From Zoroaster sp. YZ-2022 (Eukaryota > Echinodermata > Asteroidea > Forcipulatida > Zoroasteridae), in the NCBI GenBank assembly GCA_029582265.1, contig CM055816.1:29432366-29496365 (forward strand): DNA of 64,000 nucleotides, read 5' to 3'. Below, piece by piece: positions 6,238 through 62,622 of the stretch. The position numbers and the translations under genes are program-made. A model generated the notes under the pieces. That model saw nothing but the letters and a program-made list of their open reading frames with translations. It was not told the origin of the DNA and made no database searches. Position 1 is the stretch's first letter, and every line of letters begins with the position of its first letter.

Positions 6238-6602
6238 AATAAATAATAATAATAATAATAATAACTGGATTTATACAGCGCCAAATTGTCAAAGGATACA
6301 AGGCGCTTTTACATTATTATCCCTGGTCATTGGGCCAATATCAATCCTTAAACTTTCTCAGCTCCCTGGGGAGTATACAGCCCCGAGCTACCATAGCGCA
6401 TCGGAAGCTTTTTCAACCACAATATCAACCTCTACCCTCACAGGTACCCATTCATACTCCTGGGTGAAGAGGATCACTGTACAGTGAAGTGACTTGCTCA
6501 AGGATACAAGTACCATGGTCGCAGCCAGGATTCGTACCCACATTCTTATGACTCAGCCATCAGAACAGAAGTTTGATGCGCTAGACTGCCCGGCCATGAC
6601 TG
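6238..6602 (-). mobile_element. tRNA-derived SINE, family 1
   Basis: Read on the minus strand it starts with a tRNA-like head (GTCATGGCCGGGCAGTCTAGC, then GGGTACGAATCCTGG as the B box), continues with CTTGAGCAAGTCACTTCACTG and CTCCCCAGGGAGCTGAGAAAG, and ends in an ATT-repeat tail. The head carries pol III A- and B-box-like sequence. Confidence 0.75.
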
Positions 6603-11040: not shown

Positions 11041-11409
11041 TAAGCTTGGTTACGAGTTTTGCTACCCTGCCTGGCCTGCCGTGGGGCATCATGGGATAGG
11101 CATTTCCATGAGATAACTAGATCCTAGTAGTCAGGTGGCTTAGTGAAATTACCGTTACATGGCGGATAAAAGCACCATTTTTGGCACAAAGCTTCCTTAG
11201 GGCCAATCTTATACTAGACGCGGGCAAACCATCTGTGGGACGAACAATGGGCATGTTCGAGAAACGCTAAGATGCACGCGTGAGATACAGTTCTGTCACA
11301 TGCCGGGTAAGTCTCCCAGACTGCACTGCTTCTTTGTCAGATCTTGCATGTCAGTTTGCGGAACAAAACGTCACAAATGGGCCCAAATCCATTGTTCTTG
11401 GAATATTGT

Positions 11410-13348
11410 GCAGTGGCCTAGGTTAGTACATGAGCGGCACACTTCATGTAGGTAATAGACTTCTGTACTATGCCGTGGACTAGGTTAGTACATGAGTAGC
11501 ACACTTCATGTAGGTAACAGACTTCTGGTACTGTGCCGTGGGACTAGGTTAGTACGCGAGCGGCACACTTCAAGTAGGTAATAAGACTTCTGGTACTATG
11601 CGGTGGACTAGGTTAGTACACGAGTGGCACACTTCATGTAGGTAATAGACTTCTGTACTATGCCGTGGACTAGGTTAGTACATGAGTAGCACACTTCATG
11701 TAGGTAACAGACTTCTGGTACTATGCCGTGGGACTAGGTTAGTACACGACTGGCACACTTCATGTAGGTAACAGACTTCTGGTACTGTGCCGTGGGACTA
11801 GGTTAGTACGCGAGCGGCACACTCAATGTAGGTAATAAGACTTCTGGTACTATGCGGTGGACTAGGTTAGTACACGAGTAGCACACTTCATGTAGGTAAT
11901 AGACTTCTGTACTATGCCGTGGACTAGGTTAGTACATGAGTAGCACACTTCATGTAGGTAACAGACTTCTGGTACTATGCCGTGGACTAGGTTAGTACAT
12001 GAGTAGCACACTTCATGTAGGTAACAGACTTCTGGTACTGTGCCGTGGACTAGGTTAGTACACGAGTGGCACACTTCATGTAGGTAATAGACTTCTGGTA
12101 CTGTGCCGTGGACTAGGTTAGTACACGAGTGGCACACTTCATGTAGAGTAATAGACTTCTGGTACTGTGCCGTGGGACTAGGTTAGTCAGTGGCACACTC
12201 AATGTAGTAATAGACTTCTGGTACTATGCGGCGGACTAGGTTAGTACACGAGTAGCACACTTCATGTAGGTAATAGACTTCTGGTACTATGCCATGGACT
12301 AGGTTAGTACACGAGTGGCACACTTCATGTAGGTAACAGACTTCTGGTACTATGCCATGGACTAGGTTAGTACACGAGTGGCACACTTCATATAGGTAAC
12401 AGACTTCTGGTACTATGCCGTGGACTAGGTTAGTACACGACTGGCACACTTCATGTAGGTAACAGACTTCTGGTACTATGCCGTGGACTAGGTTAGTACA
12501 TGAGTAGCACACTTCATGTAGGTAATAGACTTCTGTACTATGCCATGGACTAGGTTAGTACATGAGTAGCACACTTCATGTAGGTAACAGACTTCTGTAC
12601 TATGCCATGGACTAGGTTAGTACATGAGTAGCACACTTCATGTAGGTAACAGACTTCTGTACTATGCCATGGACTAGGTTAGTACATGAGTGGCACACTT
12701 CATGTAGGTAACAGACTTCTGTACTATGCCATGGACTAGGTTAGTACATGAGTGGCACACTTCATGTAGGTAATAGACTTCTGTACTATGCCATGGACTA
12801 GGTTAGTACATGAGTAGCACACTTCATGTAGGTAACAGACTTCTGTACTATGCCATGGACTAGGTTAGTACATGAGTGGCACACTTCATGTAGGTAACAG
12901 ACTTCTGGTACTGTGCCGTGGACTAGGTTAGTACATGAGTAGCACACTTCATGTAGGTAACAGACTTCTGTACTATGCCATGGACTAGGTTAGTACATGA
13001 GTAGCACACTTCATGTAGGTAACAGACTTCTGTACTATGCCATGGACTAGGTTAGTACATGAGTGGCACACTTCATGTAGGTAACAGACTTCTGGTACTG
13101 TGCCGTGGACTAGGTTAGTACATGAGTAGCACACTTCATGTAGGTAATAGACTTCTGGTACTGTGCCGTGGGACTAGGTTAGTACGCGAGCGGCACACTC
13201 AATGTAAGTAATAGACTTCTGGTACTATGCGGCGGACTAGGTTAGTACACGAGTAGCACACTTCATGTAGGTAATAGACTTCTGGTACTATGCCATGGAC
13301 TAGGTTAGTACACGAGTGGCACACTTCATGTAGGTAACAGACTTCTGG
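11410..13348. repeat. 63-bp minisatellite, about 30 copies
   Basis: The unit reads GTACTATGCCGTGGACTAGG, TTAGTACATGAGTAGCACAC, TTCATGTAGGTAACAGACTT, CTG, with 62-65-bp variants. Because the unit is close to a multiple of three, false open frames arise on the minus strand (12137-11862, 12512-12183). It fills the intron between the last exon and the next Ig-gene exon. Confidence 0.9.
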
Positions 13349-13363
13349 TTATTATTCACTTAC

Positions 13364-16539: not shown

Positions 16540-17600
16540 GAAAATGGGTAGCAGGCCTGAGTCTCCATTTGGTCTAGAGGACAATGCCCCCTGAACCTCC
16601 TGTGGGTAGCAGGGCCTGGGTCTCCCTTTGGTCTAGAGGACAAAGCCCCCCCTGAACCTCCTGTGGGTAGCGGGCCTGAGTCTCCCTTTGGTCTAGAGGA
16701 CAAAGCCCCCTGAACCTCCTGTGGGTAGCTGGCCTGAGTCTCCCTTTGGTCTAGAGGACAAAGCCCCCTGAACCTCCTGTGGGTAGCAGGCCTGGGTCTC
16801 CCTTTGGTCTAGAGGACAAAGCCCCCTGAACCTCCTGTGGGTAGCGGGCCTGGGTCTCCCTTTGGTCTAGAGGACAAAGCCCCCAGAACCTCCTGTGGGT
16901 AGCGGGCCTGGGTCTCCCTTTGGTCTAGAGGACAAAGCCCCCAGAACCTCCTGTGGGTAGCAGGGCCTGGGTCTCCCTTTGGTCTAGAGGACGAAGCCTC
17001 CCTGAACCTCCTGTGGGTAGCGGGCCTGGGTCTGCCTTTGGTCTAGAGGACAAAGCCACCTGAACCTCCTGTGGGTAGCGGGCCTGGGTCTCCCTTTGGT
17101 CTAGAGGACAAAGCCCCCTGAACCTCCTGTGGGTAGCGGGCCTGAGTCTCCCTTTGGTCTAGAGGACAAAGCCCCCTGAACCTCCTGTGGGTAGCTGGCC
17201 CGAGTCTCCCTTTGGTCTAGAGGACAAAGCCCCCTGAACCTCCTGTGGGTAGCAGGCCTGAGTCTCCCTTTGGTCTAGAGGACAATGCCCCCTGAACCTC
17301 CTGTGGGTAGCAGGGCCTGGGTCTCCCTTTGGTCTAGAAGACAAAGCCCCCCCTGAACCTCCTGTGGGTAGCAGGCCCGAGTCTCCCTTTGGTCTAGAGG
17401 ACGAAGCCTCCCTGAACCTCCTGTGGGTAGCGGGCCTGGGTCTCCCTTTGGTCTAGAATACGAAGCCTCCCTGAACCTCCTGTGGGTAGCTGGCCTGAGT
17501 CTCCCTTTGGTCTAGAGGACGAAGCCTCCTGAACCTCCTGTGGGTAGCGGGCCTGGGTCTGCCTTTGGTCTAGAGGACAAAGCCACCTGAACCTCCTGGA
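16540..17600. repeat. 58-bp minisatellite, about 18 copies
   Basis: The unit reads GGGTAGCAGGCCTGGGTCTC, CCTTTGGTCTAGAGGACAAA, GCCCCCTGAACCTCCTGT. Single or partial units also lie at 16340-16400 and 19040-19150, the latter flanked by the same text that starts this array (GGGGTGTGATTTGACAAA). The minus-strand frames through it are artefacts of the repeat. Confidence 0.9.
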
Positions 17601-17657
17601 TGTTTCATTTTGGAGGATTTACAGACTCTCCACAAACAAGAAACTAGAGGTTTGGAG

Positions 17658-18016
17658 TGTCGTGGCCGAGCGGTCTAGCTTACCGGACTCAAGTTGTGGT
17701 GTTAACAGCAGAATGTGGGTTCGAATCCCGGCCGTGACACTTGTGTCCTTGAGCAAGACACTTAACCATATTTGCTTCTCTCCACCCAGGGGTTAAATGG
17801 GTACCTGTGAGGGCAGAGTTGGTTGATTAGCCCTATATGCACTGTAATGGCAGCAATTGAGCTGTATACTCCCCAGGGAGCTGAGATAGTTTCAGGAATG
17901 ATTTATGAGCCTTATGAGCCTTATGAGCAGGGGTAATGATATAATGCGCCTTGAGCACCACTTAGCTGGTGGATACGTGCGCTATATAAGTCCACACATT
18001 ATTATTATTATTATTG
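17658..18016 (+). mobile_element. tRNA-derived SINE, family 1 (full length)
   Basis: The head GTCGTGGCCGAGCGGTCTAG (A box) and GGTTCGAATCCCGG (B box) are tRNA-Ser/Leu-like. The body includes CTTGAGCAAGACACTTAACC, AGGGGTTAAATGGGTACCTG and CTCCCCAGGGAGCTGAGATAG. The 3' part is GCGCCTTGAGCACCACTTAG, then GCGCTATATAAGTCC and an ATT tail. It is the clearest copy of a family with at least eight members in the window. Despite the tRNA-like boxes there is no complete tRNA cloverleaf. Confidence 0.85.
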
Positions 18017-29607: not shown

Positions 29608-30739
29608 CACTGTAAAAAATTACCGTAATTTTATGCCGAAAAGTTTGTAAATTTTACGGTGAATTACCGTAATCATCCCTTTCTCATTGTTTTACGGCCG
29701 AAACCCGTATTATGGCCGCTCCCATTGCACTCTGGGATATATCCAATATGTAAATGATCTGACCTTACTTTGACATAGCTTTGCGCTCGAATCATTTCCA
29801 ATGTTTAAATAATGGATGATTTAAGGCCATTTTCAAATAATTTATTGTTAATTTTTTGATTAAAAAAGTAAGATTTTGATGTTCTTTTCTATGTTTAGGT
29901 AAAAAAGTACATTCAAAATTTAAAATATTGAAATATAGATTATAATTGCATGCCACCATGACTAAAAAGAGTTTCGAAAAGACAGTATATATATAACGGA
30001 TACGGTACATGTTCTGTACATTAGTAACTGGAGAGGATCAGGAGTGGTTGAAAAAGAACCAGACTATGTGTAAGTGAAAGACATTGTGTACAATAAACAG
30101 TTGTATTGATTAATTCCAGTATGCAACAATAATAATAATAATGTGTGGACTTATATAGCGCACGTATCCACCAACTGAGTGGTGCTCAAGGCGCATTATA
30201 TTATTACCCCTGCTCATAAGGCTCATAAATCATTCCTGAAACCATCTCAGCTCCCTGGGGAGTATACAGCTCAATTGCTGCCATTACAGCGCATATAAAG
30301 CTAATCAACCAACTCTGCCCTCACAGGTACCCATTTAACCCCTGGGTGGAGAGAAGCAATTATGGTGAAGTGTCTTGCTCAAGGACACAAGTGTCACGGC
30401 CGGGTTTCGAACCCACATTATGCTGCTAACACCAGAACTTGCTAACACCAGAAATTTAACTGTACATTTAACAAAAATCCAGTTAAATGTACAGCACGAT
30501 TTGTAAAACTTCCACCATAAAATTTACGGTGCTTAGTGTAGTACCGGTAACTGTATAAAAACGGTAAAAAGCATTAAAAATTACGGTTACCAAAATACGT
30601 TATTCGTAGTATTAACAGCTAGACTTATCATGGTTTAACGTAAAATACAATACGGTCCACACGTAAAAAATACGGTAGAAAGGTGGCAACTCGCTGCACG
30701 ACTTTCGACCATAAATTTTACGGGTAATATTTTACAGTG
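29608..30739. mobile_element. MITE with CACTGTAAAA ends and ACCGTAATTTT-word interior, holding a SINE
   Basis: CACTGTAAAAAATTACCGTA starts it and TACGGGTAATATTTTACAGTG ends it. TTTTACGGT, ATTACCGTAA and ATACGGT recur throughout. CACTG...CAGTG ends resemble hAT-type MITEs, though no clear 8-bp target duplication was seen. A family-1 SINE splits the interior. Confidence 0.65.
30127..30455 (-). mobile_element. tRNA-derived SINE, family 1 (inside MITE)
   Basis: The minus-strand copy runs from the ATT tail at 30127 to a head that loses its A box (GGTTTCGAAACCCGGCC region, CTTGAGCAAGACACTTCACC). Part of the head, CTGCTAACACCAGAA, is duplicated. Confidence 0.75.
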
Positions 30740-30789
30740 TGGCGAACAACGAGCTTCAGCCAATTGGCCCGATCTCCTATCCAGTTAGT

Positions 30790-31145
30790 AATAATAATAA
30801 TAATAATAAAGATTTTTAGCGCGCACATATCCACCCTGCTGGGCGCTCAAGGCGCGGAAACAAAGAAAAAACATTAATACAAACAATATACAATGATAGC
30901 ATAGGGAAAACAAATTATGTACCGAGATACATGTACCTACAATGCAATTACAAATATACATCATCTTTGAAGAGTTGTGACATAAGATGAGTTTTAAGCA
31001 TCGACTTGAATCTGGTTATACTATGACAAGATTTGAGTTTAGTTGGAAGATGATTCCAGAGTCTCGGAGCTGCGACAGAAAACGACCTATCACCCCAGTT
31101 CCGTTTTGAAGTTGGTTCCTTGAGGAGTGACATGTTGCTGGAGCA
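30790..31145 (-). pseudogene. LINE (non-LTR retrotransposon) 3' end with RT C-terminus
   Basis: On the minus strand, frame 31133-30948 ends with GDRSFSVAAPRLWNHLPTKL, then TRFKSMLKTHLMSQLF, the stereotyped C-terminus of CR1/L2/I-group LINE reverse transcriptase proteins (RSF..AAP.LWN.LP...FK..LK). It is followed by a 3' UTR that ends GCGCCTTGAGCGCCCAGCAG, GGTGGATATGTGCGCGC and an ATT repeat. Only the last ~60 codons remain (5' truncated). The tail matches that of SINE family 1, so this LINE group probably mobilises the SINE. Confidence 0.8.
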
Positions 31146-32338: not shown

Positions 32339-33136
32339 CACTGCAAAAATGGTGTTTAGAACTGATTTAAACATATTTCTATAAACACTTAATTGTACCC
32401 ACTTTTTCCACATGTTTAACCAAATACACGCGTTTAGGAATGTGTTGGAATGCGTTTAAATGCTAAACGGCCATCCTCTGTACATGTCACAAAGCTACAC
32501 GGCCATCCTCTGTACATGTCACCAAGCTAAACGGCCATCCTCTGTACATGTCACCAAGCTAAACGGCCATCCTCTGTACATGTCACAAAGCTAAACGGCC
32601 ATCCTCCGTACATGTCACAAAGCTAAACGGCCATCCTCTGTACATGTCACAAAGCTAAACGGCCATCCTCTGTACATGTCACAAAGCTAAACGGCCATCC
32701 TCTGTACATGTCACAAAGCTAAACGGCCATCCTCTGTACACGTCACAAAGCTAAACGGCCATCCTCTGTACACGTCACAAAGCTAAACGGCCATCCTCTG
32801 TACACGTCACAAAGCTAAACGGCCATCCTCTGTACATGTCACAAAGCTAAACGGCCATCCTCTGTACATGTCACAAAGCTAAACGGCCATCCTCTGTACA
32901 TGTCACAAAGCTAAACGGCCATCCTCTGTACATGTCACAAAGCTAAACGGCCATCCTCTGTACATGTCACAAAGCTAAACGTGCTTAGCTTTTTGACACC
33001 TGTTCATTTTTACCATTCAAACACACATCACAGAAAAAGCACCATCTAAACATGTTTAGGCTAAACATGTGGGGAAAAGTGGGTACAATTAAATCTTTAG
33101 AAATATGTTTAAATTCTAAACATCATTTTTACAGTG
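32339..33136. mobile_element. MITE with CACTGCAAAAATG ends and internal 32-bp minisatellite
   Basis: CACTGCAAAAATGGTGTTTAG starts it and CTAAACATCATTTTTACAGTG ends it, with inner arms (TGTACCCACTTTTTCCACATG vs CATGTGGGGAAAAGTGGGTACA). GTTTAG and CTAAAC words recur. Between the arms, 32463-32981 holds about 16 copies of CTAAACGGCCATCCTCTGTA then CATGTCACAAAG, with CATGTC/CACGTC variants clustered together. Confidence 0.8.
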
Positions 33137-33717: not shown

Positions 33718-34072
33718 ATGGAGTGCCATGGTCGAGCGGTTTAGTGCATCGGATTTGTGTTCTGATGGCCGAGTCGTCAGAATGTGGGTTCGAATCCTGT
33801 CCGTGACCGTGGTACTTGTGTCCTTGAGCAAGACACTTTACCATAATTGCTTCTCTCCACCCAGGGGTAAATGGGTACCTGTGAGGGCAGAGTTGGTTGT
33901 TGTGTTTGATTAGCCCATTATGCGCCGAAATGGCAGCAATTGAGCTGTATACTCCACAGGGAGCTGAGATGGTTTCAGGAATGATTTATGCGCCTGATGA
34001 GCAGGGGTAATAATGTACAGCGCTCTGATACCTTGTTTAAGAGCGCTTTAAAATGCCCGACATTATTATTAT
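33718..34072 (+). mobile_element. tRNA-derived SINE, family 1
   Basis: Head GCCATGGTCGAGCGGTTTAG with B box GGTTCGAATCC, body CTTGAGCAAGACACTTTACC, GGTAAATGGGTACCTGTGAG and GGGAGCTGAGATGGTTTCAGG, tail GAGCGCTTTAAAATGCCCG and an ATT repeat. The tail differs from the 17.66-kb copy, so the two belong to subfamilies with different 3' ends. Confidence 0.8.
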
Positions 34073-36126: not shown

Positions 36127-36272
36127 TCCTATACGAAGAACAAAGCAATTATGGTTAAGTGTCTTGCTCAAGGACACAAGCACCGCGACCGGCCAGGCCG
36201 GGATTCTAACCCACATTCTGATGCCACAAGAACTTGAATCCAATGCACTAGACCGCTCAGCCACGATAACTC
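36127..36272 (-). repeat. SINE family 1, head half
   Basis: CAATTATGGTTAAGTGTCTTG, CTCAAGGACACAAGCACCGC and GACCGCTCAGCCACGATAAC are the tRNA-like head and first body segment on the minus strand. Body and tail are missing. Confidence 0.65.
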
Positions 36273-36554
36273 CAGTAATTACCAGATTGTCAAAGATTGT
36301 CAAAGTGACAATAAAGTATTATCTAAAATTTAATGTAAATTTGGTACACGTAACCAATGATATAATTATACTCCACCTTCAAGGCACTTTTTGTTGTTGA
36401 CGTCGTCGTCATTTATTTCCATGCTGCCCTTGCATTGTAGGTACATCATTCATATCATACTCATGAACCAATGAATGACCTTCTTTTGTATCACTACGAG
36501 GGCGCCCTTCAAATTGTGACATCAATACAATCTATTATGATCTTGAAAACATTG

Positions 36555-44976: not shown

Positions 44977-45338
44977 TAATAATAATAATAATAATGGAGG
45001 CATTTTTAAAAGCGCTCTTACACTAGGTATCACAGCGCTTTACAGTATACCCTCTGCTCATCAGGCGCATAAATCACTCCTGAAACCATCTCATCTCCCT
45101 GGGGAGTATACAGCTCAATTGCTGCCATTTCGGCGTATATAGGGCTAATCAAACACAACAACCAACTCTGCCCTCACAGGTACCCATTTACTCCTGGGTG
45201 GAGAGAAGCAAGTATGGTAAAGTGTCTTGCTCGAGGACACAAGCACCACGGTTGCGGTCGGGATTCGAAACCACATTCTGACGACTCAGCCATCAGAACA
45301 CAAATCTAATGCACTAAACCGCTCGGCCATGACACTCT
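44977..45338 (-). mobile_element. tRNA-derived SINE, family 1
   Basis: Complete minus-strand copy: head GTCATGGCCGAGCGGTTTAG, body CTCGAGCAAGACACTTTACC and CTCCCCAGGGAGATGAGATGG, tail GCGCTGTGATACCTAGTGTAAG, GAGCGCTTTTAAAAATGCC and ATT repeats. The tail subtype matches the 33.72-kb copy. A short ACTCTACACATGGC repeat borders it on the right. Confidence 0.8.
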
Positions 45339-45419
45339 ACACATGGCACTCTACACATGGCACTCCACACATGGCACTCCACACAGAGAAATAGGCTATG
45401 TCAAAGCACGAACTTTTAC

Positions 45420-45677: not shown

Positions 45678-46588
45678 TGAATGATTGGCTTGCAGTGATT
45701 GGATTGCAGTGATTGGCTTGCAGTGATTGGCTTGCAGTGATTGGCTTGCAGTGATTGGATTGCAGTGATTGGCTTGCAGTGATTGGCTTGCAGTGATTGG
45801 CTTGCAGTGATTGGCTTGCAGTGATTGGCTTGCAGTGATTGGATTGCAGTGATTGGATTGCAGTGATTGGATTGCAGTGGTTGGCTTGCAGTGATTGGAT
45901 TGCAGTGATTGGATTGCAGTGATTGGCTTGCAGTGATTGGCTTGCAGTGATTGGCTTGCAGTGATTGGCTTGCAGTGATTGGCTTGCAGTGATTGGCTTG
46001 CAGTGATTGGATTGCAGTGATTGGATTGCAGTGATTGGATTGCAGTGATTGGCTTGCAGTGATTGGATTGCAGTGATTGGCTTGCAGTGATTGGATTGCA
46101 GTGATTGGCTTGCAGTGATTGGCTTGCAGTGATTGGATTGCAGTGATTGGCTTGCAGTGATTGGATTGCAGTGATTGGATTGCAGTGATTGGATTGCAGT
46201 GATTGGATTGCAGTGATTGGCTTGCAGTGATTGGCTTGCAGTGATTGGATTGCAGTGATTGGATTGCAGTGATTGGCTTGCAGTGATTGGATTGCAGTGA
46301 TTGGATTGCAGTGATTGGATTGCAGTGATTGGCTTGCAGTGATTGATTGCAGTGATTGGCTTGCAGTGATTGGATTGCAGTGATTGGCTTGCAGTGATTG
46401 GATTGCAGTGATTGGATTGCAGTGATTGGATTGCAGTGATTGGATTGCAGTGATTGGATTGCAGTGATTGGCTTGCAGTGATTGGATTGCAGTGATTGGA
46501 TTGCAGTGATTGGATTGCAGTGATTGGATTGCAGTGATTGGATTGCAGTGATTGGATTGCAGTGATTGGATTGCAGTGATTGGATTGC
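45678..46588. repeat. 15-bp minisatellite, about 60 copies
   Basis: The unit is TTGCAGTGATTGGAT, with a common variant TTGCAGTGATTGGCT. Two minus-strand frames stay open for over 320 codons (HCNPITAIQSLQSN-type repeats) because 15 is divisible by three. The two variants are distributed irregularly, and a few copies lost one base (near 46340). It is not a credible gene. Confidence 0.95.
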
Positions 46589-46599
46589 AAGACACGTTC

Positions 46600-50768: not shown

Positions 50769-50833
50769 TTATGGCGCTGGTCCCTCCACATGACCACCAT
50801 TTCTCTCAATGCAAAGCCGGCATCGTCGATCCA
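50769..50833 (-). pseudogene. Mariner-like transposase, severed C-terminal end
   Basis: On the minus strand, using one copy of the 5-bp duplication, the frame runs on from 58595 as RRCRLCIERNGGHVEG and ends at TAA. CI..NGGH..  is the usual C-terminal signature of this transposase family, so the two parts were one gene before the insertion. Confidence 0.8.
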
Positions 50834-51087
50834 AGTAGATATAAAAGGGGGTTTCTGGCCCACCACCCCTTTTAGGGGCGGTGTTTGTTGGGTAGGGTGG
50901 TTGATGACGTAAGAGGTGGTTGAGCTTTGTTTTTTGTTTTGTTTTGTTTTGTTTTTAAATTGAGGAGGAGTTTGGTGGAGGGTTGTGGACCAGTACCCCT
51001 TTTAGGGGGCGTGGTTGGATGGATGGTGGAGGGGTGGTGGATGAGGTGTTTGATGACGTAAGAGGTGGTTGACTTTTTTTATAGACA
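50834..51087 (+). repeat. Left TIR of the 7.8-kb element, with inward TATA and CRE-like sites
   Basis: TATAAAAGG at 50840-50848 is a TATA box six bases from the tip, facing inward. Two subrepeats follow, each with ACCCCTTTTAGGGG and TGATGACGTAAGAGGTGGTTG. TGACGTAA is a CREB/ATF-like site, and GTAAGA inside it could be a splice donor. The TIR ends in GACTTTTTTTATAG|ACA, a good splice acceptor. The right TIR shares all of these. Confidence 0.85.
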
Positions 51088-51909
51088 GTTGCGACGAATG
51101 TAGAACGAGACATCGATGAAATAACTTCTATTCTAAGCGAATTTCCGATAAATGATGAACTTGAATGGGATGATCTTCTTGACGAAGATCCTATTTTGCG
51201 GCCGAATGGACTTTTAATGCGAGAACTGGTGGGTCTCAATAAAGCCATGCAAACGAATCGAGGCGAACTAGCAAATAATTTAGCTAGATTGAGCGCACTC
51301 GACAAAGAAATCTCCGATCTTAAGCAAAAAATCGACGAAGGAGAGATAGGAGATGAAGAAGCGGTCGACGAACTTGGCAGACAGCTGCGAGAACTACAAG
51401 ACGAAAGACGAGCTAGATTGGAGGCTGCGAGCACGCAAGATCACGTTCTTCGCAGTCAAATCAATAGAATCAAAGAAACGATTCATAACATGTTGGAAAG
51501 CGACGTTACGTTAAGCGAAACAAATTAAACTTTATTTAGAGAACAAGGCGTAACGATAGTCAGTATATTAACGGCGATTAGTCTCGCCATCAGTACCATC
51601 GTCGCTTCGATTGCAGCCAGCGTAAAACCAATTGTACCGCCAACGCCACCTATACCGCCAACGCCTGCACCGCCTACGCCGAGTGGCGGCGGTGTAAAAG
51701 AGTGGATAAAAACTCTCAAAAATCTATCGAATCTGCTAAAGAAACTCGGATTAAAAGCCTTGGCTTCTCTACCCGCTATTATCGGATCAGTGTTGAGTTG
51801 GTTATTGACGACTCTTTCAAAAGTGGTAGGATGGGTAGCGGAACATGTGTGGCTCGCCTTGACCGGAGTCGGAGTTTTAGTTTTATCTTATTTACAGAGT
51901 CACCGCTAA
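51085..51909 (+). pseudogene. Element gene 1: acidic coiled-coil protein with proline linker and hydrophobic C-terminus (one in-frame stop)
   Basis: The frame opens just after the TATAG acceptor at the inner edge of the TIR and has no ATG until 51217, so translation probably begins on a spliced upstream leader or the start is lost. The product begins acidic (DIDEITSILSEF, LEWDDLLDEDPIL), then a helical charged stretch from about residue 45 to 145 (NNLARLSALDKEISDLKQKI, AVDELGRQLRELQDERRARL) that should form a coiled coil. TAA at 51526-51528 interrupts. The same frame goes on with EQGVTIVSILTAISLAISTI (membrane-like helix), a PPTPPIPPTPAPPTP linker, and two more hydrophobic or amphipathic helices ending at TAA 51907-51909. 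A membrane-active or virion core role is possible but is inference only. Confidence 0.7.
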
Positions 51910-52738
51910 CGTTACGTCAACAACTCGTAAATAATAACGCCTAGCCCGCCAAGTATTGCAAAACCAACGATCAGAGAATATTTTTTCTTCTTGGTGAGTA
52001 TCAACAGATGGTGAAAGTGATACATCGTTAAGCTGCAAAGAATTGGTAGATGTATCGTTTAATGGTAATAGATCGTTAGATTGTGGCGGTAATAGATCGT
52101 TAGACCGTGATATATCGGGTTGTAAGGAATTGGTAGATGTATCGTTAAGCTGTGATGAATCAGGCGGCAAAACGGGTGTTGAATTCGTGTCTTGATTCGA
52201 TCCGAGCGATAAATCAGGCGTTGCGATTAAAATATTGTTGTTGTATCCAACGTACGTACCTATTCGCAAATTCATGTCGGATGGCATAAGATATAAATCT
52301 TCTCCGATGACAAAGTTTAACTGCGATCGAGCGTATTGTAAAGAATCTTGATACCTCTGAATAGAAGATTGTAAATCTACCGGAGAATCGATCGAAACCT
52401 CGAGAATGTTTAAGAATTCTCTTTTCGCATCTAAACCGGTACCCACTGTAAGAATTCCACTTTTAGCTTGAGCTTGAGCTCCCAATATCGCGTAAACGTA
52501 CGTTCTTCTTATAGAGTCGTTGATTCGTTCTATACCTATATCCGTAAAGCCTTGAGCTAATCCCAACGCGTTAAGAGCCTCGTTAAAATTTACAGTTTTA
52601 GCCTGAGCTTTTTGCGTTGCTTGATTGTACGTTCTTATATCACTGTTGATTCGTTCTATCGCTTCGCGTTGAGATTGGCTCATGCCCAGTATAAATTTAT
52701 TCCAAGCTCGTTCACACTCGGGAGATTGTGAAATGTAA

Positions 52739-55196
52739 TACTACAGTCACACTGTCACGATCTGGCGTTACGATTGTTCACGTATGACCACGATTAAAAA
52801 AATTAATTTCATCCGTTGCCATACGTGTACATCCGTGGCACTTTCACTTCTACACGATTACACAAAGACTCCACTAAGGTTCCACAACGTATGACCCCGA
52901 TTATACAACGATTGCTATAAGAGTATACAAAGTATTTACTAGGTATGCGTAACGATTACCCACGGATAATCACGTATACACAGCGATTGACCACGATGTT
53001 ACTAAGGATTCACAACGTATGACCACGATTATACACGGATGTAAAGCGATTGGTTATGCTAGGTTCCCACTGTCGTGCGATCCGTTACGAACGCCACGAT
53101 TGGCCATTCGTAGCTGATCGTGGAATTTTTGTTTCCTTTTCTGAAATTTCACGTTTGGATGCGAGTTGATGCGAGTCGATACGTTCTGGTACGATTTGGT
53201 GCGCTTGGATGCGATATAGGCACGATTGGCCAATTTCAGATGACACGATCTGTCACGATCTGGTCTCCCGTTCAGATACGATCAGATACGTTCCGATAGG
53301 ATTGTCCCGATTGAGTCCACGATTGTGTCCCGATCTGACACGATCATCACGATCGGGGTCCCCGATTTTGGACGATCTGATACGTGCAGATACGTTCGGA
53401 TACGTTCCGATACGATCATCACGAACCGATGCGCTCTTTTGCGATCGGATACGATTGTGGTGGCGATGTCTTTCACGATCGGGATGGAAGTGATCACGAT
53501 TTGAGCCACGATTGAACCCCGACGGGTACATATACAGCCCGACTGACCATGGACTTCATTGTTTCTTGAACTTCTACAGAGTGAAGACTACAACCCACAA
53601 TCATTGACCAAACAAATGTGCTCTCTTCAAGTGTAGATCGATGAATGAAGCTCAATCAATCTTGTCCGGTATATATATGGTCGCGAGAACTCGTAACAGA
53701 TCGTGAGCGCCCGTGAACAAGCGTTACTAATCGTATCTACTCGCATCTACTCGCATCTACTCGTATCAACTCGTATCAAATCGTGAGTCAATCATGTCCG
53801 GTCGTGAGCGATGGTACCCGACAGAGCGTAACAGATCGTGACAGATCGTGGGAGATCGCAGCGCATCTCAACAGAGCGTGGTGTTTGTCTTGTCCAAGGT
53901 TGATCCCGATCACCACGATTTCGAAGCACTATTAGATGCGATCTGTCGCGCTTTGTTACGATCCAATAAGATCTCATGCGATGATCACGATTAAAAATTA
54001 ATCGTGTTGATCGTACAATATTTTTGAACCGTCCAAACATGTTCTACGATCAACACGATTGCCACGACTGACCTCAAGATCTGATAAGATCTGATAGGAT
54101 CACCACGATTACTCCACGATTAAGACCACGATTTCAATCGTGGCGCGAATCGTGATAGTGGGAACGGGGCATTAACGATTGCCCAACGATTGCTACAAAT
54201 GAATGAAATATAAAAGTTCTGACCCTATTTTATACTTTTCAAAACCAAACAAGATCAGAACGATCTGGCGTTACGATTGTTCACGTATGACCACGATTAA
54301 AAAAATAAATTTCATCCGTTGCCATACGTGTACATCCGTGGCACTTTCACTTCTACACGATTACACAAAGACTCCACTAAGGTTCCACAACGTATGACCC
54401 CGATTATACAACGATTGCTATAAGAGTATACAAAGTATTTACTAGGTATGCGTAACGATTACCCACGGATAATCACGTATACACAGCGATTGACGACGAT
54501 GTTACTAAGGATTCACAACGTATGACCACGATTATACACGGATGTACAGTGATTGGTTAACGGTTGCCCAACGATTGCTACAAATGAATGAAATATAAAA
54601 CTGTTCTGACACTATTTATACTTTTCAAAACCAAACAAGATCAGAATCGTTGTGAAATCGTGATTAATCGTGATAGATCGTGATAAATCGTTATGAAATC
54701 GTTATGATCGTTGTGTAATCTTACTGCAATCGTTATAAATCGTTGTCATACTTGGTCATCCGTAATGTAATCTTAACATTCGCAGTGTATCCGTTGAGCA
54801 TCCGTTGTGTATCCTGTGTATCCTAGTCATACGTAATGCTTCCTGTGTGCATCCCTAGTGCATCCGTGGTTATTTCTGCCACGATTGTACAAAGGATGTT
54901 CACGTATGTCTACGATTGCTCACGATTGCCATTACGTATGCACTACGTATGACTATAGGGATGTACGCATGATACACAACGGATTTTTTTCCCACGATTC
55001 CAGAACGATAGTTTTGAACCGTTTGAAACTTCCGTTGTGCCATCGTGGACCATAACGGATGCCCACGTATGATTAGGACTCTACTACGAATGACTATAGT
55101 ATCCCCAACGTATCATTACGTATGACTACGGATGACCATCCGCTGGACATCCGTTGTGCATTCGCAATCAAAAATCGTGACAGTGTGACTGTAGCA
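52739..55196. mobile_element. 2458-bp Harbinger-like TIR element inside gene 2 (level 3)
   Basis: TAA is duplicated at 52736-52738 and 55197-55199. Ends are TACTACAGTCACACTGTCAC and the complement of TGCTACAGTCACACTGTCAC. It has no transposase gene. A ~370-bp unit starting GATCTGGCGTTACGATTGTT is present twice (52760-53056 continued at 54175-54258; and 54259-54645), the first copy being split by the element at 53057-54171. The interior consists of CACGAT, CGTATGACC, ATCGTTG and their complements. Removing it with one TAA makes the flanking gene frame continuous. Confidence 0.8.
53057..54171. mobile_element. 1115-bp Harbinger-like TIR element (level 4)
   Basis: TTA is duplicated at 53054-53056 and 54172-54174. 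Ends are TGCTAGGTTCCCACTGTCGT and the complement of TGCCCCGTTCCCACTATCAC. No gene is present. It is filled with GATACG, CACGATC, GATCGTG and TACTCGTATC words. The short frames inside are not genes. Confidence 0.75.
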
Positions 55197-55866
55197 TAAG
55201 CGACCGTATACGTCGAAGGATGATCTCCAAAACCCATCTTTGTCGCGGTTTTGTAATAATCATAATCACTCACGTCATTAAACGCAACGTGCAAACTCGA
55301 ATTATCGTAGTCTTTTCCAGGCACCGCTTTGTAACCGTTGTCGTAATAATAAGCTTTTCCTAATCCTCTCGAGTTTTTGTCTACTTGTTGTTTCCAATCT
55401 GATACCAGCGAGATGTGAAAGTCTCTACATATTTTATTATACGCGTCAATGTCTATATATTGTTTTCAAACGCGCTCCAAAATTTTTGAAAAGATGCGGG
55501 ACAGCTCATTTCTTTGAGCAATCGTCTAATTTGATAATTGAAAAAACTACGAATCATCAAGTTCGAATGCAACAAATGTTCGTCGCTCACACCGCATCCC
55601 GTCGTACTGCACCACGTTACAAAATTTATTTGATTCTGATAAAACTTTAGCGGATTAGAATTCCAGCTATTTACAATCTCGTCGCTATCGACGTGAGGTA
55701 ACTTGTACTTGCTAAAAGGATTATCGAGTACTCCGTTAAAAAAATCATTTTCATTAACGTAAATATTTACATTCGTCAAATCTCGAGAAGAAATTGTTTG
55801 CGCTGTAAAATTTCCAGATTGTCGATACCGTTTTGATAAATTACTCTGAAATGCTAAAGGAATCGA

Positions 55867-55910
55867 CATTTTATTATAAACTAATATTATTTTTAGTTTA
55901 TAATAAAATG
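55867..55910. promoter_or_regulatory. Perfectly symmetric divergent promoter between element genes 2 and 3
   Basis: CATTTTATTATAAACTAA (55867-55884) and TTAGTTTATAATAAAATG (55893-55910) are exact reverse complements separated by TATTATTT. Each arm ends in the start codon of the gene reading away from it. TTTATAATAAA directly before ATG recurs in similar form before gene 4 (TTATTATAAATG at 56284-56295) and gene 6 (TATAATAAAG before 58232), so it is likely the element's core promoter, with almost no 5' leader. Confidence 0.7.
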
Positions 55911-56290
55911 CATCATACGATCGAAATTAGAAATTTTAGCAAGCCAGTCGTATTAGATCATAGTTTCGATAATCGCGATGGTAAACTCGCCATTTCGTTA
56001 AAAACCGCCAAAATTATATATTTTAAAATAATATACGTTCATTGCGATCAAATTTCTACGAGCGAAATTTTTTCAACGGTAAACCTTCCACTATTTTAAA
56101 CGTTTTTCCCTTACAAGATAAAAGATTCGGGGAAAATACGTGGATAGAATATTCTAATCCATTACGAAAAAATCTTAAAACCGACACTTTTAACGAATTG
56201 AGTTTTAAAATAAAGATTCTATCGGTAGAGACATTAATAATCACAGTATGCCCGTCATTACAACCGTCGAAATTAATACATGGTTATTAT
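55908..56290 (+). pseudogene. Element gene 3: small protein, frameshifted
   Basis: ATG at 55908 within the divergent promoter. 63 codons (MHHTIEIRNFSKPVVLDHSF start; IYVHCDQISTSEI near 50) run to a stop at 56099. At the T-run near 56075 the reading continues in another frame as FFNGKPSTILNVFPLQDKRF and LKTDTFNELSFKIKIL. The combined ~125-residue product has alternating hydrophobic residues that suggest a beta-rich fold, as in small capsid-associated proteins. Function unknown. The end is set before the start of gene 4. Confidence 0.55.
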
Positions 56291-56292
56291 AA

Positions 56293-56778
56293 ATGGCGAG
56301 TATTTACGGTCCGACTCGTAAAAACAAACACATTTTATTTAAAAATCGCAATCCGTCCACTTATGAATATCATAATCGTATCGCTCCAAAAGAAGTGCGT
56401 CACACGACACCGCTAATCAATTTAATGGGAAAACTACCAATTTACATCGAGTGGAATGGATCAGCGAATCAACCCTGTTTTTTTCTCGAAACTGAACCTA
56501 CATACTGTTCGATTTTTGCGAAAAGAATCAAGGAGAGTAATGTTTTTTATTCAATCACCTCAAAACGCAGGTTTGTAGCCAACACGGCTTATATATTTTC
56601 CACTATCGATGAATTTAATCCAAACTTTCTTTTGACGATTTTTGTACCGCAACATTTAGAATGTGGAATTTGCTTCAATATACAAGATCTAGAAGTCTTT
56701 GTACAAGCGACGTTTTTTGGTGCTATAGACACGGGGATCTGTTTCGATATTTATATCGAAAGTTTTTCATCGGTTTAA
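56293..56778 (+). CDS. Element gene 4: 161-residue protein of unknown function
   Basis: ATG at 56293 directly follows TTATTATAA, the element's promoter-like word. The frame is intact to TAA at 56776-56778. It starts MASIYGPTRKNKHILFKNRN and is rich in aromatic and beta-branched residues (NGSANQPCFFLETEPTYCSI, FLLTIFVPQHLECGICFNIQ, ICFDIYIESFSSV). This suggests a compact beta protein. There is no signal peptide, coiled coil or zinc motif. It is the only gene of the element without an obvious break. Its position between two small genes suggests one late transcription block. No family was recognised. Confidence 0.6.
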   Translation: MASIYGPTRKNKHILFKNRNPSTYEYHNRIAPKEVRHTTPLINLMGKLPIYIEWNGSANQPCFFLETEPTYCSIFAKRIKESNVFYSITSKRRFVANTAYIFSTIDEFNPNFLLTIFVPQHLECGICFNIQDLEVFVQATFFGAIDTGICFDIYIESFSSV

Positions 56779-56804
56779 ATAATCTTTTATTATTAATAGA
56801 AATA

Positions 56805-57819
56805 ATGAGCATCTCTAATGATACAACTAAGATATATCCAACATTACCAACCATAAACACTTTAAGTCATGGTGATGCGTCCATCAACACCTCGAGTAAT
56901 GTAGATGTGAGTGTGTTTAGATTACCAAAAAAATCAACGACATCCAAAAAGAAATTCTTGCAGAAAAAAATGAGCGCGAGAAATCCTATAAAAATATATA
57001 ATAAAGCCATTCAAACTTGTTCTATCGTAGAAACAATGGCTGAATGCACCGCTGTCGGAGCCGGAGCAATGGGAATTGCCGGTCTAGCCAGCGTTATAGC
57101 AGCGCCCATCGGATTCGCTCTCGAAGGAAGTAGCCATCGGACTACGCACTATAGCCATGGCCATTAAATATGCAAAATTCAAGCTCTGTAAAAAAGCAAA
57201 AAAACACAACGAGATTAAAGTTTTAGCCGAAAGTAAACTCAACACCATCGACAGTCACGTTTCGAAAGCGATCGAAGACGGTCTTATAATAATAATAATA
57301 ATAATAATGTATAGATTTATATAGCGCACGTATCCACCAACTAAGTGGCGCTCAAGGCGCATCATATTATTATCCCTGCTCATAAGGCTCATAAGGCTCA
57401 TAAATCATTCCTGAAACCATCTCAGCTCCCTGGGGAGTATACAGCTCAATTGCTGCCATTTCTAGCGCATAGAGAGCAAACCATCTCTGCCTTCACAGGT
57501 ACCCATTTAACCCCTGGGTGGAGAGAAGCAATTATGGTTAAGTGTCTTGCTCAAGGACACAGGTGTCACGGCTGGAGCTCGAACCCACACTCTGCTGCTG
57601 GCAACACCAGAACTTGAGTTCAGTGCGCTAGACCGCTCGGCCACGACAATCCACTTTACGTGCATTATACAACACAGTCAAGAAGAATTTCATTTAATCA
57701 GCGAGGAGCAAAACAAATACTCACAAATGAAAGAAAATATTCGAACAAAATTTACGCCAAAAAATGTTGCTCCGACAGATGTTAAAGCCATCATCGATAA
57801 AGAAAAAAAAAACTCGTAG
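56805..57819 (+). pseudogene. Element gene 5: basic linker plus hydrophobic hairpin plus helical C-terminus, broken by a SINE
   Basis: ATG at 56805. The first 120 codons run to 57167: Ser/Thr-rich start (MSISNDTTKIYPTLPTINTL), a basic patch (KKSTTSKKKFLQKKMSARNP) and a Gly/Ala-rich hydrophobic stretch (GAGAMGIAGLASVIAAPIGF). A shift near 57130 leads into a frame with KYAKFKLCKKAKKHNEIKVL and LNTIDSHVSKAIEDG, which is cut by the SINE at 57285. The far side resumes as EEFHLISEEQNKYSQMKENI and ends near 57819 at an A-run. The lysine-rich helical tail after a glycine-rich membrane-like segment would fit a membrane-associated structural protein, which is inference. Confidence 0.6.
57285..57652 (-). 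mobile_element. tRNA-derived SINE, family 1, inside element gene 5
   Basis: Minus-strand copy: head GATTGTCGTGGCCGAGCGGT, body CTTGAGCAAGACACTTAACC and CTCCCCAGGGAGCTGAGATGG, tail GCGCCTTGAGCGCCACTTAG, GGTGGATACGTGCGCTATAT and ATT repeats. The tail subtype is the one shared with the LINE at 30.8 kb. This shows that the element was already in the genome when this SINE family was active. Confidence 0.85.
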
Positions 57820-57927
57820 AAAAACTTTTGAATTTAAAGTAAACTTGACGAATGACGATAGAAAAATCCTACAACAATCAACAAGTTTTAATCGAAAGAC
57901 CTCCCGCGTATAATCCAAACATTTAAA

Positions 57928-58232
57928 TTATAAACGAGTTTTTTTTATCAACTCTTTCATCACGAGATTAAAATTTCTTCTAGCTCTCCCTTCAACGCGG
58001 TTTAAAAATAATTTTTTTAATACATTACCGCATTTTGTACATAAATGCGCCTTTGCTTTTGTACCCTTTTTACATATTCGACACTCAACTGGTATACTTT
58101 CCGTGTCGAATACGCCACTGATGTTGCGCACAAAATACATCGCCAACCACACTAGGTATACAACACTTGTCCGTTTTGCCTACTAAAAGCCATTCACACG
58201 GAATAATTGCTTTTGATAAATAGTTAGTCATC
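57928..58232 (-). pseudogene. Element gene 6: small zinc-ribbon-like protein, one frameshift
   Basis: ATG at 58232, preceded by TAGTATAATAAAGACG. The first ~45 codons read MTNYLSKAIIPCEWLLVGKT, then cysteine- and histidine-bearing KCC and FCAQHQ, and stop. One frame over, the reading continues VECRICKKGTKAKAHLCTKC then GNVLKKLFLNRVEGRARRNF, ending at 57928. CxxC...CxxC with upstream C/H residues suggests two zinc-binding sites in a ~100-residue basic protein, perhaps DNA- or RNA-binding or regulatory. It sits next to the right TIR and would be transcribed from it or from its own TATAATAAA. Confidence 0.6.
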
Positions 58233-58350
58233 GTCTTTATTATACTACTACATCTTTTCAAATCGTTTTTTCATTTTTTAAAGTTAGTTTTTCGATATCT
58301 TTTTTTTAACTAATTTTTTTTTAAATATCTTTTTTAAATCAACGGCTTAT

Positions 58351-58594
58351 TGTCTATAAAAAAAAGTCAACCACCTCTTACGTCATCAAACACCTCATCT
58401 ACCACCCCTCCACCATCCATCCAACCACGCCCCCTAAAGGGGTACTGGTCCACAACCCTCCACCAATCTCCTCAATTAAAAAAATTAAAAAATAAAATAA
58501 AAAAAGCTCAACCTCTTACGTCATCAACTACCCTACCCAACAAACACCGCCCCTAAAAGGGGTGGTGGGCCAGAAACCCCCTTTTATATCTACT
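58351..58594 (-). repeat. Right TIR of the 7.8-kb element
   Basis: Reverse complement of 50834-51087 with few differences, mainly in the A/T-rich run between the subrepeats and one missing GGT in the first TGACGTAAGAGGTGG. TATA box, both TGACGTAA sites and the TTTTTTTTATAG acceptor are kept. Confidence 0.85.
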
Positions 58595-59631
58595 ATCCAT
58601 GTCTCTCACAGCACGTCTTACCATTTGTTGATCATGCCGCAAGTTCTCCACTGCCTCAGTGATTCTTGCTCTTAACTCATACAAGTCAGCTGGTGGCGTG
58701 GTGAAAACGTTTCCTTTCAAGTAACCCACAGGAAAAAAAATCGCAAGGTGTGAGATCGGAGGACCTTGCGGGCCACTCCACTGGATGGTGCAAAGCAATG
58801 ACTCGTTCACCAAACAGTTCTGTTAACCGATTTCTCACTGCTCTCAGTCTGTGTGCAGGAGCTCCATCCTGCGCCCACCAAGCCCGCCGGAAGACACCAT
58901 TCTGTTGCATATATAGGAAATACCTGCTGCAACTGTGGGACTACAAAGTCGTTTATCATATCGAGATATCCCTGTCCGTTAATGTTTCCATTGAAGAAAA
59001 TAGGACCAAACAAATGTCCATTGCCACATAGCCCAATCCAAACATTTAACTTCTCCTTACTCATGTTCTTATCGAAGGTAAAGTTCGATGGGTGATGCAG
59101 TTGAGCATATTCATGAATGTTATGAGAGTTCACTCGCCCATCGAGAGAAAATGTTGCTTCATCACCAATGTTGAAGGATTGAAGGAACTGTGCATCTCGT
59201 TCACACTTATCAACGAACCAGTGACTGAAAGCCAGTCTTCGGCCAAAGTCATTGGGGAGAAGTTGGTGTCTGGTGTGCACATGGTATGGGTGGAGATGGA
59301 GGTCTAGCCTCGTGATGCGGTTAAATGTGGCAGATGGTAATCCAGTCGTGTTCCTTCTTGCACTGATTCTTGGGTTTTCTTGAATGGCATTTTGAACAAT
59401 TTGGATATTTTCTTGTGACCTTCCAGTACGCCGCCGTCCACTGGAGCCCTTGTTTAAATTCAAACTTGTGCCATGCTCTTCGTACTTGCGCACGTTCTTC
59501 CAGATTGTCCTTTTGGTTGGTGGGCTCACGATCTGGAAATTGTGCCCGACTGCAATGAAACTCCTTGTCTCATGATAAGTGGTGACAACAAATGTCCTCT
59601 GCTGTTTTGTGAGTTGAACCATTTTGACCAC
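58595..59631 (-). pseudogene. Mariner-superfamily transposase, N-terminal and catalytic part
   Basis: From ATG 59631 the protein starts MVKMVQLTKQQRTFVVTTYH, an HTH region found in DUF4817-type transposases, with KRTIWKNVRKYEEHGT. The catalytic part shows DEATFSLDGRVNSHN (first Asp), then in another frame WWAQDGAPAHRLRAVRN (second Asp) and SSDLTPCDFF (third), then in a third frame GYLKGNVFTTPPADLYELRA. At least two frameshifts (near 58860 and 58700) make it inactive. The reading stops at the junction with the inserted element, and the last ~20 codons lie at 50833-50769, 7.8 kb away. Confidence 0.85.
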
Positions 59632-59655
59632 TGATTTGAAGATTTAATGCACAAG

Positions 59656-62286: not shown

Positions 62287-62622
62287 AATAATAATAATAA
62301 TGGAGCGCTCTTAATTACACAAGGTATCAAAGCGCTGTACATTAATATTAATTACCCCCTGCTCGTCAGGCGCATGATCATTCCTGAAACCATCTCATCA
62401 GCTCCCTGGGGAGTATACAGTTCTGAATTGCTGCCATTTCAGCACATATGGGCTAATTAAACACAACAACCAACTCTGCCCTCACAGCTACCCATTTACT
62501 CCTGGGTGGAGAGAAGCAATTATGGTAAAGTGTCTTGCTCGAGGACACAAGCACCGCAGTCGGGATTCGAACCCACATTCTGACGATTCAGCCATCAGAA
62601 CTCAAATCCGATGCACTAAACC
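62287..62622 (-). mobile_element. tRNA-derived SINE, family 1
   Basis: Minus-strand copy with body (CTCGAGCAAGACACTTTACC, CTCCCCAGGGAGCTGATGAGA) and the GAGCGCTCCATT tail subtype. The extreme 5' head is lost at TCGGTTTAGTGCATCGG. Confidence 0.75.

Follow-up and report, generated by a model that had tools for sequence, protein, structure and literature searches.

A short virus-like element in the genome of Zoroaster sp. YZ-2022 as a probable internally deleted Polinton

The window analysed here is a 64-kb stretch (C1:29432366-29496365) of the 1.0-Gb assembly of Zoroaster sp. YZ-2022, and all own-genome searches reported below cover this same assembly. At positions 50834-58594 of the window (7761 bp) lies an element that is bounded by terminal inverted repeats (TIRs) and a 5-bp target-site duplication (TSD) and holds the remains of six genes (g1 to g6). 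We have little doubt that this copy is an internally deleted Polinton/Maverick remnant of a 15-20 kb parent and not a new small virus, because longer homologous copies are present in the same genome, g1 is cut at the TIR edge, and the resulting junction is shared by no other copy among the matches scored. Its genes are what was left over and do not form a compact genome, and the element is an ordinary decayed and internally deleted Polinton; a candidate new family of tiny DNA viruses is removed, and its origin is explained. As a side product, the analysis shows, in one genome, that an abundant Polinton lineage has g1-g6 as a conserved block next to its capsid and ATPase genes.

Longer relatives and the deletion junction

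The left TIR found 17 matches in the genome, among which six clean TIR pairs were recognised: the window copy (7.8 kb), C9 (7.6 kb), C22 (8.4 kb), C17:12.89M (10.7 kb), C17:13.05M (18.4 kb), and C5 (19.4 kb), the last of which holds a nested retrotransposon. The arms match over 118-329 bp in all six pairs, and the TSD, read by eye, is exact in three pairs, has one mismatch in two, and is unreadable in one; that is, the relatives of the window copy have long TIRs and a short TSD. A further pair on C8, 30.9 kb apart, appears to enclose two copies, and at C8:11.75-11.78M one Polinton copy is apparently inserted within g2 of another. Three single arms without a partner (two on C12, one on C1) are accompanied by g2-g6 and by no g1 match. 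The two on C12 (C12:4.47M and C12:6.02M) share their outer flank on the side of g6, which suggests that a chromosome segment was duplicated.

When the products of the window copy were compared with these places by tblastn, a match was found at every place except C22. In C17:13.05M and C5, the genes follow the order TIR-g6-g5-g4-g3-g2-g1-MCP-ATPase-gX-INT-PolB-TIR (MCP, major capsid protein; INT, integrase; PolB, polymerase B), where the labels MCP and PolB denote homologues of the C17 and of the C22/C17 frames so named, respectively. The same order was observed in a copy on C3, chosen from the g2 matches, and apparently in the two C8 copies, the C3 ends and the right end on C8 being incompletely read. 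A genome census with a g2 relative gave 106 matches from 3669 first-look candidates (101 scored). Six more g2 loci were chosen by hand from these matches, and at each a 2-kb piece was read 0.5-3.5 kb past g2 toward g1; a capsid and/or ATPase match lay beyond g2 in five of them, one of which (C14) has the ATPase and gX in reversed order, and the sixth gave g1 only.

The g1 of the window copy has no start codon and begins right at 51087, the point at which the two TIR arms cease to match. Counted in the C3 frame, with its first methionine at 7, it starts at residue 173, and in the C5 frame, with its first methionine at 41, at residue 160. Inward of the left breakpoint, the right arm keeps matching the polymerase-side arms of C9 (76% over 110 columns) and C22 (80% over 99 columns), a likeness that extends as far as where the terminal gene has its start codon, and from this we infer that the left TIR was cut. 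The terminal genes of this Polinton lineage start at the inner TIR edge. A 121-bp query laid across the breakpoint gave 65 candidates and 40 scored genome matches; the junction is spanned by one of the 40, the window itself, one more is the right TIR, and 37 start at the exact breakpoint and lie on its g1 side. A match on C15 that overlaps the breakpoint by 9 bases was rejected as a sharer of the junction, since the remainder of g1 lies upstream of it and a capsid gene is nearby. The missing stretch measures ~12.8 kb on the C17 copy; because the gX-INT spacing differs between C17 (~2.9 kb) and C3 (0.9 kb), we put the missing length at ~11-13 kb. An earlier note on this DNA had listed an internally deleted copy among its options, and the longer copies, the truncated g1, and a junction unique among the 40 scored matches support this option. 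Its addition that only structural genes were kept is right in part: a capsid candidate and the packaging ATPase were also lost, and it is from their position only that g1-g6 are taken to be structural.

Judging from Pfam profiles, these relatives encode a packaging ATPase of the FtsK/A32 type and a retrovirus-like integrase. The A32-type ATPase (PF04665) scored 42.9 bits in C5, 29.9 in C17, and 22.0 in C22 (cut-off 22.8; two of the three above it), and the rve integrase (PF00665) scored 28.9 bits in C3 (E 1.4e-6), 25.3 in C5 (1.9e-5), and 16.8 in C22 (0.0086), nearly the whole model being covered in C3 and C5. C5 also gave a higher rve score (45.1 bits); this hit comes with H2C2 and gag, is part of the nested retrotransposon, and was not counted. 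Endonuclease_7 exceeded its cut-off of 23.6 in three copies (25.7, 26.7, and 32.3 bits), and a polymerase-B-like protein accompanies an Endonuclease_7 match in C17, C22, and C17:12.89M. LDANNLYGWAM, KLMNNSVFGKTM, and YTDTDS were read by eye in the polymerase-like protein, and we take them to be type-B polymerase motifs.

Several observations weigh against the assignment to Polintons. All of the counted rve scores fall under the cut-off of 32.6. As to a double jelly-roll MCP, Capsid_N (PF16903) matched the C17 frame at 18.4 bits (E 0.0017), under its cut-off of 24, and did not hit the homologous capsid frame of C5. The polymerase assignment rests on motifs read by eye; Pfam returned no polymerase hit on the polymerase-like frames themselves, and none of the 60 matches listed in a genome scan with PF03175 lies inside the compared copies. 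The open frames of four polymerase loci, used as tblastn queries, likewise found no match in the compared copies, and polymerase fragments compared with solved structures gave nothing useful. No adenovirus-type cysteine protease was found in the scanned frames, which are a part of all the copies' frames, and no single jelly-roll penton was identified. In addition, the longer copies were compared in pieces, and the two g2 loci that were read with ~20 kb showed the whole order only at C3; at C9:39.8M (~20 kb), polymerase pieces and g1-g5 were present with no match to MCP, ATPase, gX, or INT.

Short copies and other explanations

The other short copies with paired TIRs have each lost something different. 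C9 keeps an N-terminal piece of the polymerase ahead of a g1 that is truncated at a different place than in the window; C22 reads TIR-MCP-ATPase-gX-INT-PolB-TIR without g1-g6, a loss complementary to that of the window copy; and C17:12.89M has no capsid, gX, or integrase matches. The three are separate losses, and two of these copies, C9 and C17:12.89M, hold g1-g6 as the window copy does. The earlier note had proposed to see whether a constant size of ~5 kb with the same six genes recurs, and the own-genome search found no such recurrence. The satellite of constant size that it had considered is not supported, C9, C22, and C17:12.89M having lost different parts, nor is its "undescribed family of small endogenous DNA viruses," for which no sibling with the window junction was found. 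Such a virus family of ~5 kb and six genes would fit the exactness of the ends and the compactness of the gene set, but elements of 18-19 kb contain the same genes next to those for capsid, ATPase, integrase, and a polymerase-like protein, g1 is truncated, and neither the TIR search nor the junction query found a ~5-kb sibling, so that we regard this family as highly improbable.

It is unlikely that the window copy represents a mobile, non-autonomous short form, akin to a satellite or a defective genome, for which longer Polintons of the genome would provide replication and integration in trans. Such a form would agree with the retention of both TIRs and the 5-bp TSD, with the four of six paired-TIR copies that lack core or g1-g6 genes and keep both ends, and with the complementary gene half of C22. 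However, the parts that are gone differ between short copies, the window junction occurs in the window only (1 of the 40 scored matches), g1 is cut internally, and a deletion in place would look identical. Finding copies by their TIRs also favours those that have both, and kept TIRs therefore say little on selection for the ends. We consider quite improbable the wider proposal that short TIR-bounded derivatives, in the manner of defective interfering genomes, depend on functions supplied in trans for their replication, packaging, and integration, their deletions arising before integration, and act as parasites of the full-length virus; if defective short forms did move in trans, Polintons would behave as replicating viruses.

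Hardly credible, in our judgment, is a two-segment system, in which the window/C9 type would carry g1-g6 and the C22 type the genes from capsid to polymerase, with TIRs on each. C22 (8.4 kb) does have the core half without g1-g6, and the opposite holds for the window copy and for C9, which has the N-terminal polymerase piece in addition, yet longer joined elements exist and g1 is cut at different places in the window and in C9. Moreover, because the TIRs of the window copy and C22 are 76-77% identical over ~90 bp, these two are not partners of one lineage.

Defective copies of Polintons are to be expected, because 96% of vertebrate Maverick loci are eroded (PMC8097293) and the capsid gene is full-length in only 46 of 72 Polintons (PMC4028283), according to the sections of these papers drawn on here; Maverick copies have also been reported to be fragmented, with a median of 1243 bp (PMC8504770, in part). 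The consulted parts of PMC2836005, PMC8504770, and PMC8097293 describe no defined short Polinton family, which is no proof of absence.

The window copy, its insertion site, and later insertions

ATCCA stands directly outside both ends of the element, and AGTAGATATAAAAGGGG is the outermost sequence at both. The TIR arms (254 bp on the left, 244 bp on the right) are 91% identical (E 1.5e-99), and their outer 60 of 60 bases are identical, far above chance. Outside a T-rich tract, the alignment of the arms contains two substitutions and a few small gaps, and because the arms differ so little there, the insertion does not look ancient. Joining both host flanks with a single ATCCA gives an uninterrupted transposase-like C-terminus in one frame, and the element is therefore a true insertion into a transposase-like gene. 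The host gene split by the element occupies 58553-59643 and sequence left of 50833; in Pfam it showed just a weak DUF4817 helix-turn-helix trace, and by its appearance we take it to be Tc1/IS630-like.

Because it is 4.9 kb long and no core Polinton gene was found in it, compared with the 15-20 kb and the core replication and capsid genes of a complete Polinton, the window copy is a derivative and not a complete member. Among its remaining genes (Table 1), g1 contains an in-frame stop at 51526-51528, g2 is in three frame pieces, and g4, a tandem pair in several relatives and a single copy here, is the only one that is still one open frame; the start codon of g6 lies at the inner edge of the ancestral TIR. 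A Pfam scan of eight window pieces gave no family over the curated cut-off, with coiled-coil and zinc-ribbon traces only.

Two later insertions lie within the element, which is ~4.9 kb without them. The first is a nested transposon of ~2.46 kb with inverted ends CTACAGTCACACTGTCACGAT and, read by eye, TTA at its edges, presumably a PIF/Harbinger-like duplication; it contains many ACGAT/ATCGT units and an internal direct repeat of 300 bp (99%). The second is a tRNA-like short interspersed element (SINE), which has eight further matches within the window, at 6242-6600, 17653-18015, 30125-30441, 30786-30855, 33719-34002, 36143-36274, 45056-45340, and 62361-62582. The tRNA-Leu (17659) and tRNA-Thr (33725) calls made by ARAGORN are inside SINE copies. 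Elsewhere in the window, long tandem arrays are found at 11409-13349, 45682-46589, 32462-32981, and 16545-17598 (periods of 63, 14, 32, and 58 bp, respectively).

Table 1. Features of the window copy (positions in the 64-kb window)
Feature	Position	Strand	Remarks
Left TSD	50829..50833	none	ATCCA
Left TIR	50834..51087	+	254 bp kept; inner side probably cut by the deletion
Deletion junction	51087..51088	none	TIR fused to the inside of g1
g1	51088..51909	+	First ~165 residues gone; coiled coil, then hydrophobic segment
g2, 3' piece	51895..52740	-	
Nested non-autonomous DNA transposon	52740..55205	none	Interrupts g2; edges approximate
g2, middle and 5' pieces	55178..55869	-	Two frames
g3	55908..56290	+	Two frames; ~300-320 bp short versus nine relatives
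g4	56293..56775	+	161-aa open frame
g5	56805..57285	+	Glycine-rich hydrophobic protein; frameshifted, cut by SINE
Dispersed tRNA-like SINE	57285..57655	none	371 bp
g6	57928..58231	-	Weak zinc-ribbon trace; two frames
Right TIR	58351..58594	-	Part matched by the left arm
Right TSD	58595..58599	none	ATCCA

Much of what the earlier note said of the outline of the element is confirmed, namely the termini at 50834 and 58594, the TIRs of ~250 bp with the ATCCA duplication, and the two later insertions with a net size of ~4.9 kb (2.46 kb and 371 bp subtracted from 7761). Its account of the genes fared less well. The "six genes" do not stand as such, g1, g2, g3, g5, and g6 being damaged; the gap between g2 and g3, with their start codons at 55869 and 55908, measures 38 bp and not 44 bp; and the ends of g1 and g2, said to be 2 bp apart, were not reproduced, the 3' end of g2 being frameshifted. 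That no polymerase or integrase is visible is correct for the window and misleading otherwise, because relatives with the same genes carry polymerase-like and integrase genes.

The g2 family comprises 397 proteins at E ≤ 0.001, and a Pfam domain is present in 0 of the 120 listed. In viral contigs, 170 pattern stretches were obtained as possible g2 relatives, none of which was confirmed by tblastn, and a g2 profile gave 0 matches to solved structures. The AlphaFold model of a g2 homologue is mostly helical (pLDDT, predicted local distance difference test, 84), and Foldseek found no match for it at E ≤ 0.001 in the PDB and viral models. For g3 there are six homologues, each covering ≤68% of the query, and for g4 one, with an unusable model (pLDDT 29). 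The place of the block suggests that g1-g6 are virion proteins; because it sits beside the capsid and ATPase genes, they probably served the parent as accessory proteins of the virion. Mildly new, it appears, is that a conserved block next to capsid genes, g1-g6, is without a Pfam match above cut-off.

Proposed history and comparison with known Polintons

An internally deleted Polinton would have arisen as follows. The parent would have belonged to the 15-20 kb class, with polymerase B, integrase, packaging ATPase, major capsid protein, and g1-g6. It would have integrated into the transposase-like gene via its TIRs, probably by its own integrase, and made the 5-bp duplication, a step to which the TSD and the restored frame of the flanks attest. 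One deletion of ~11-13 kb, running from inside the polymerase-side TIR into g1 as comparison with the relatives shows, took out the genes from capsid through ATPase, gX, and integrase to polymerase; it may date from replication, prior to integration, or have occurred in place once the element had integrated. The DNA transposon and the SINE landed in the element, and mutations broke the remaining frames, the marks of which are seen directly in the window copy. The element now probably has no function of its own.

Polintons are characterised by their size, integrase, ATPase, polymerase, and capsid (PMC4028283, in part). Adintoviruses resemble the relatives described here in combining PolB, an rve integrase, and virion genes, and are defined by a PolB with an OTU-like N-terminus, a hexon recognisable by BLASTp, and a chromodomain integrase, as given in the consulted part of PMC11071296; general Pfam scans of the relatives, no search being aimed at either feature, showed neither an OTU-like N-terminus nor a chromodomain. 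Vertebrate Mavericks, from the part of PMC8097293 used here, are alike in an end motif close to (AGT)2/(AG)3 and in TIRs of hundreds of bp, whereas their TSDs are 6 bp and not 5 bp, which also speaks against our assignment, and their two gene modules face the centre, unlike the gene order observed here. The closest likeness lies in the same genome, in Polinton/Maverick relatives that have like TIR ends (AGTAG...), the g1-g6 block, and a 5-bp TSD where readable, and that carry an rve integrase and an A32-type ATPase along with a capsid candidate and a gene resembling polymerase; the window copy differs from Polintons in the absence of ~11-13 kb with the core genes, to which later decay has been added.

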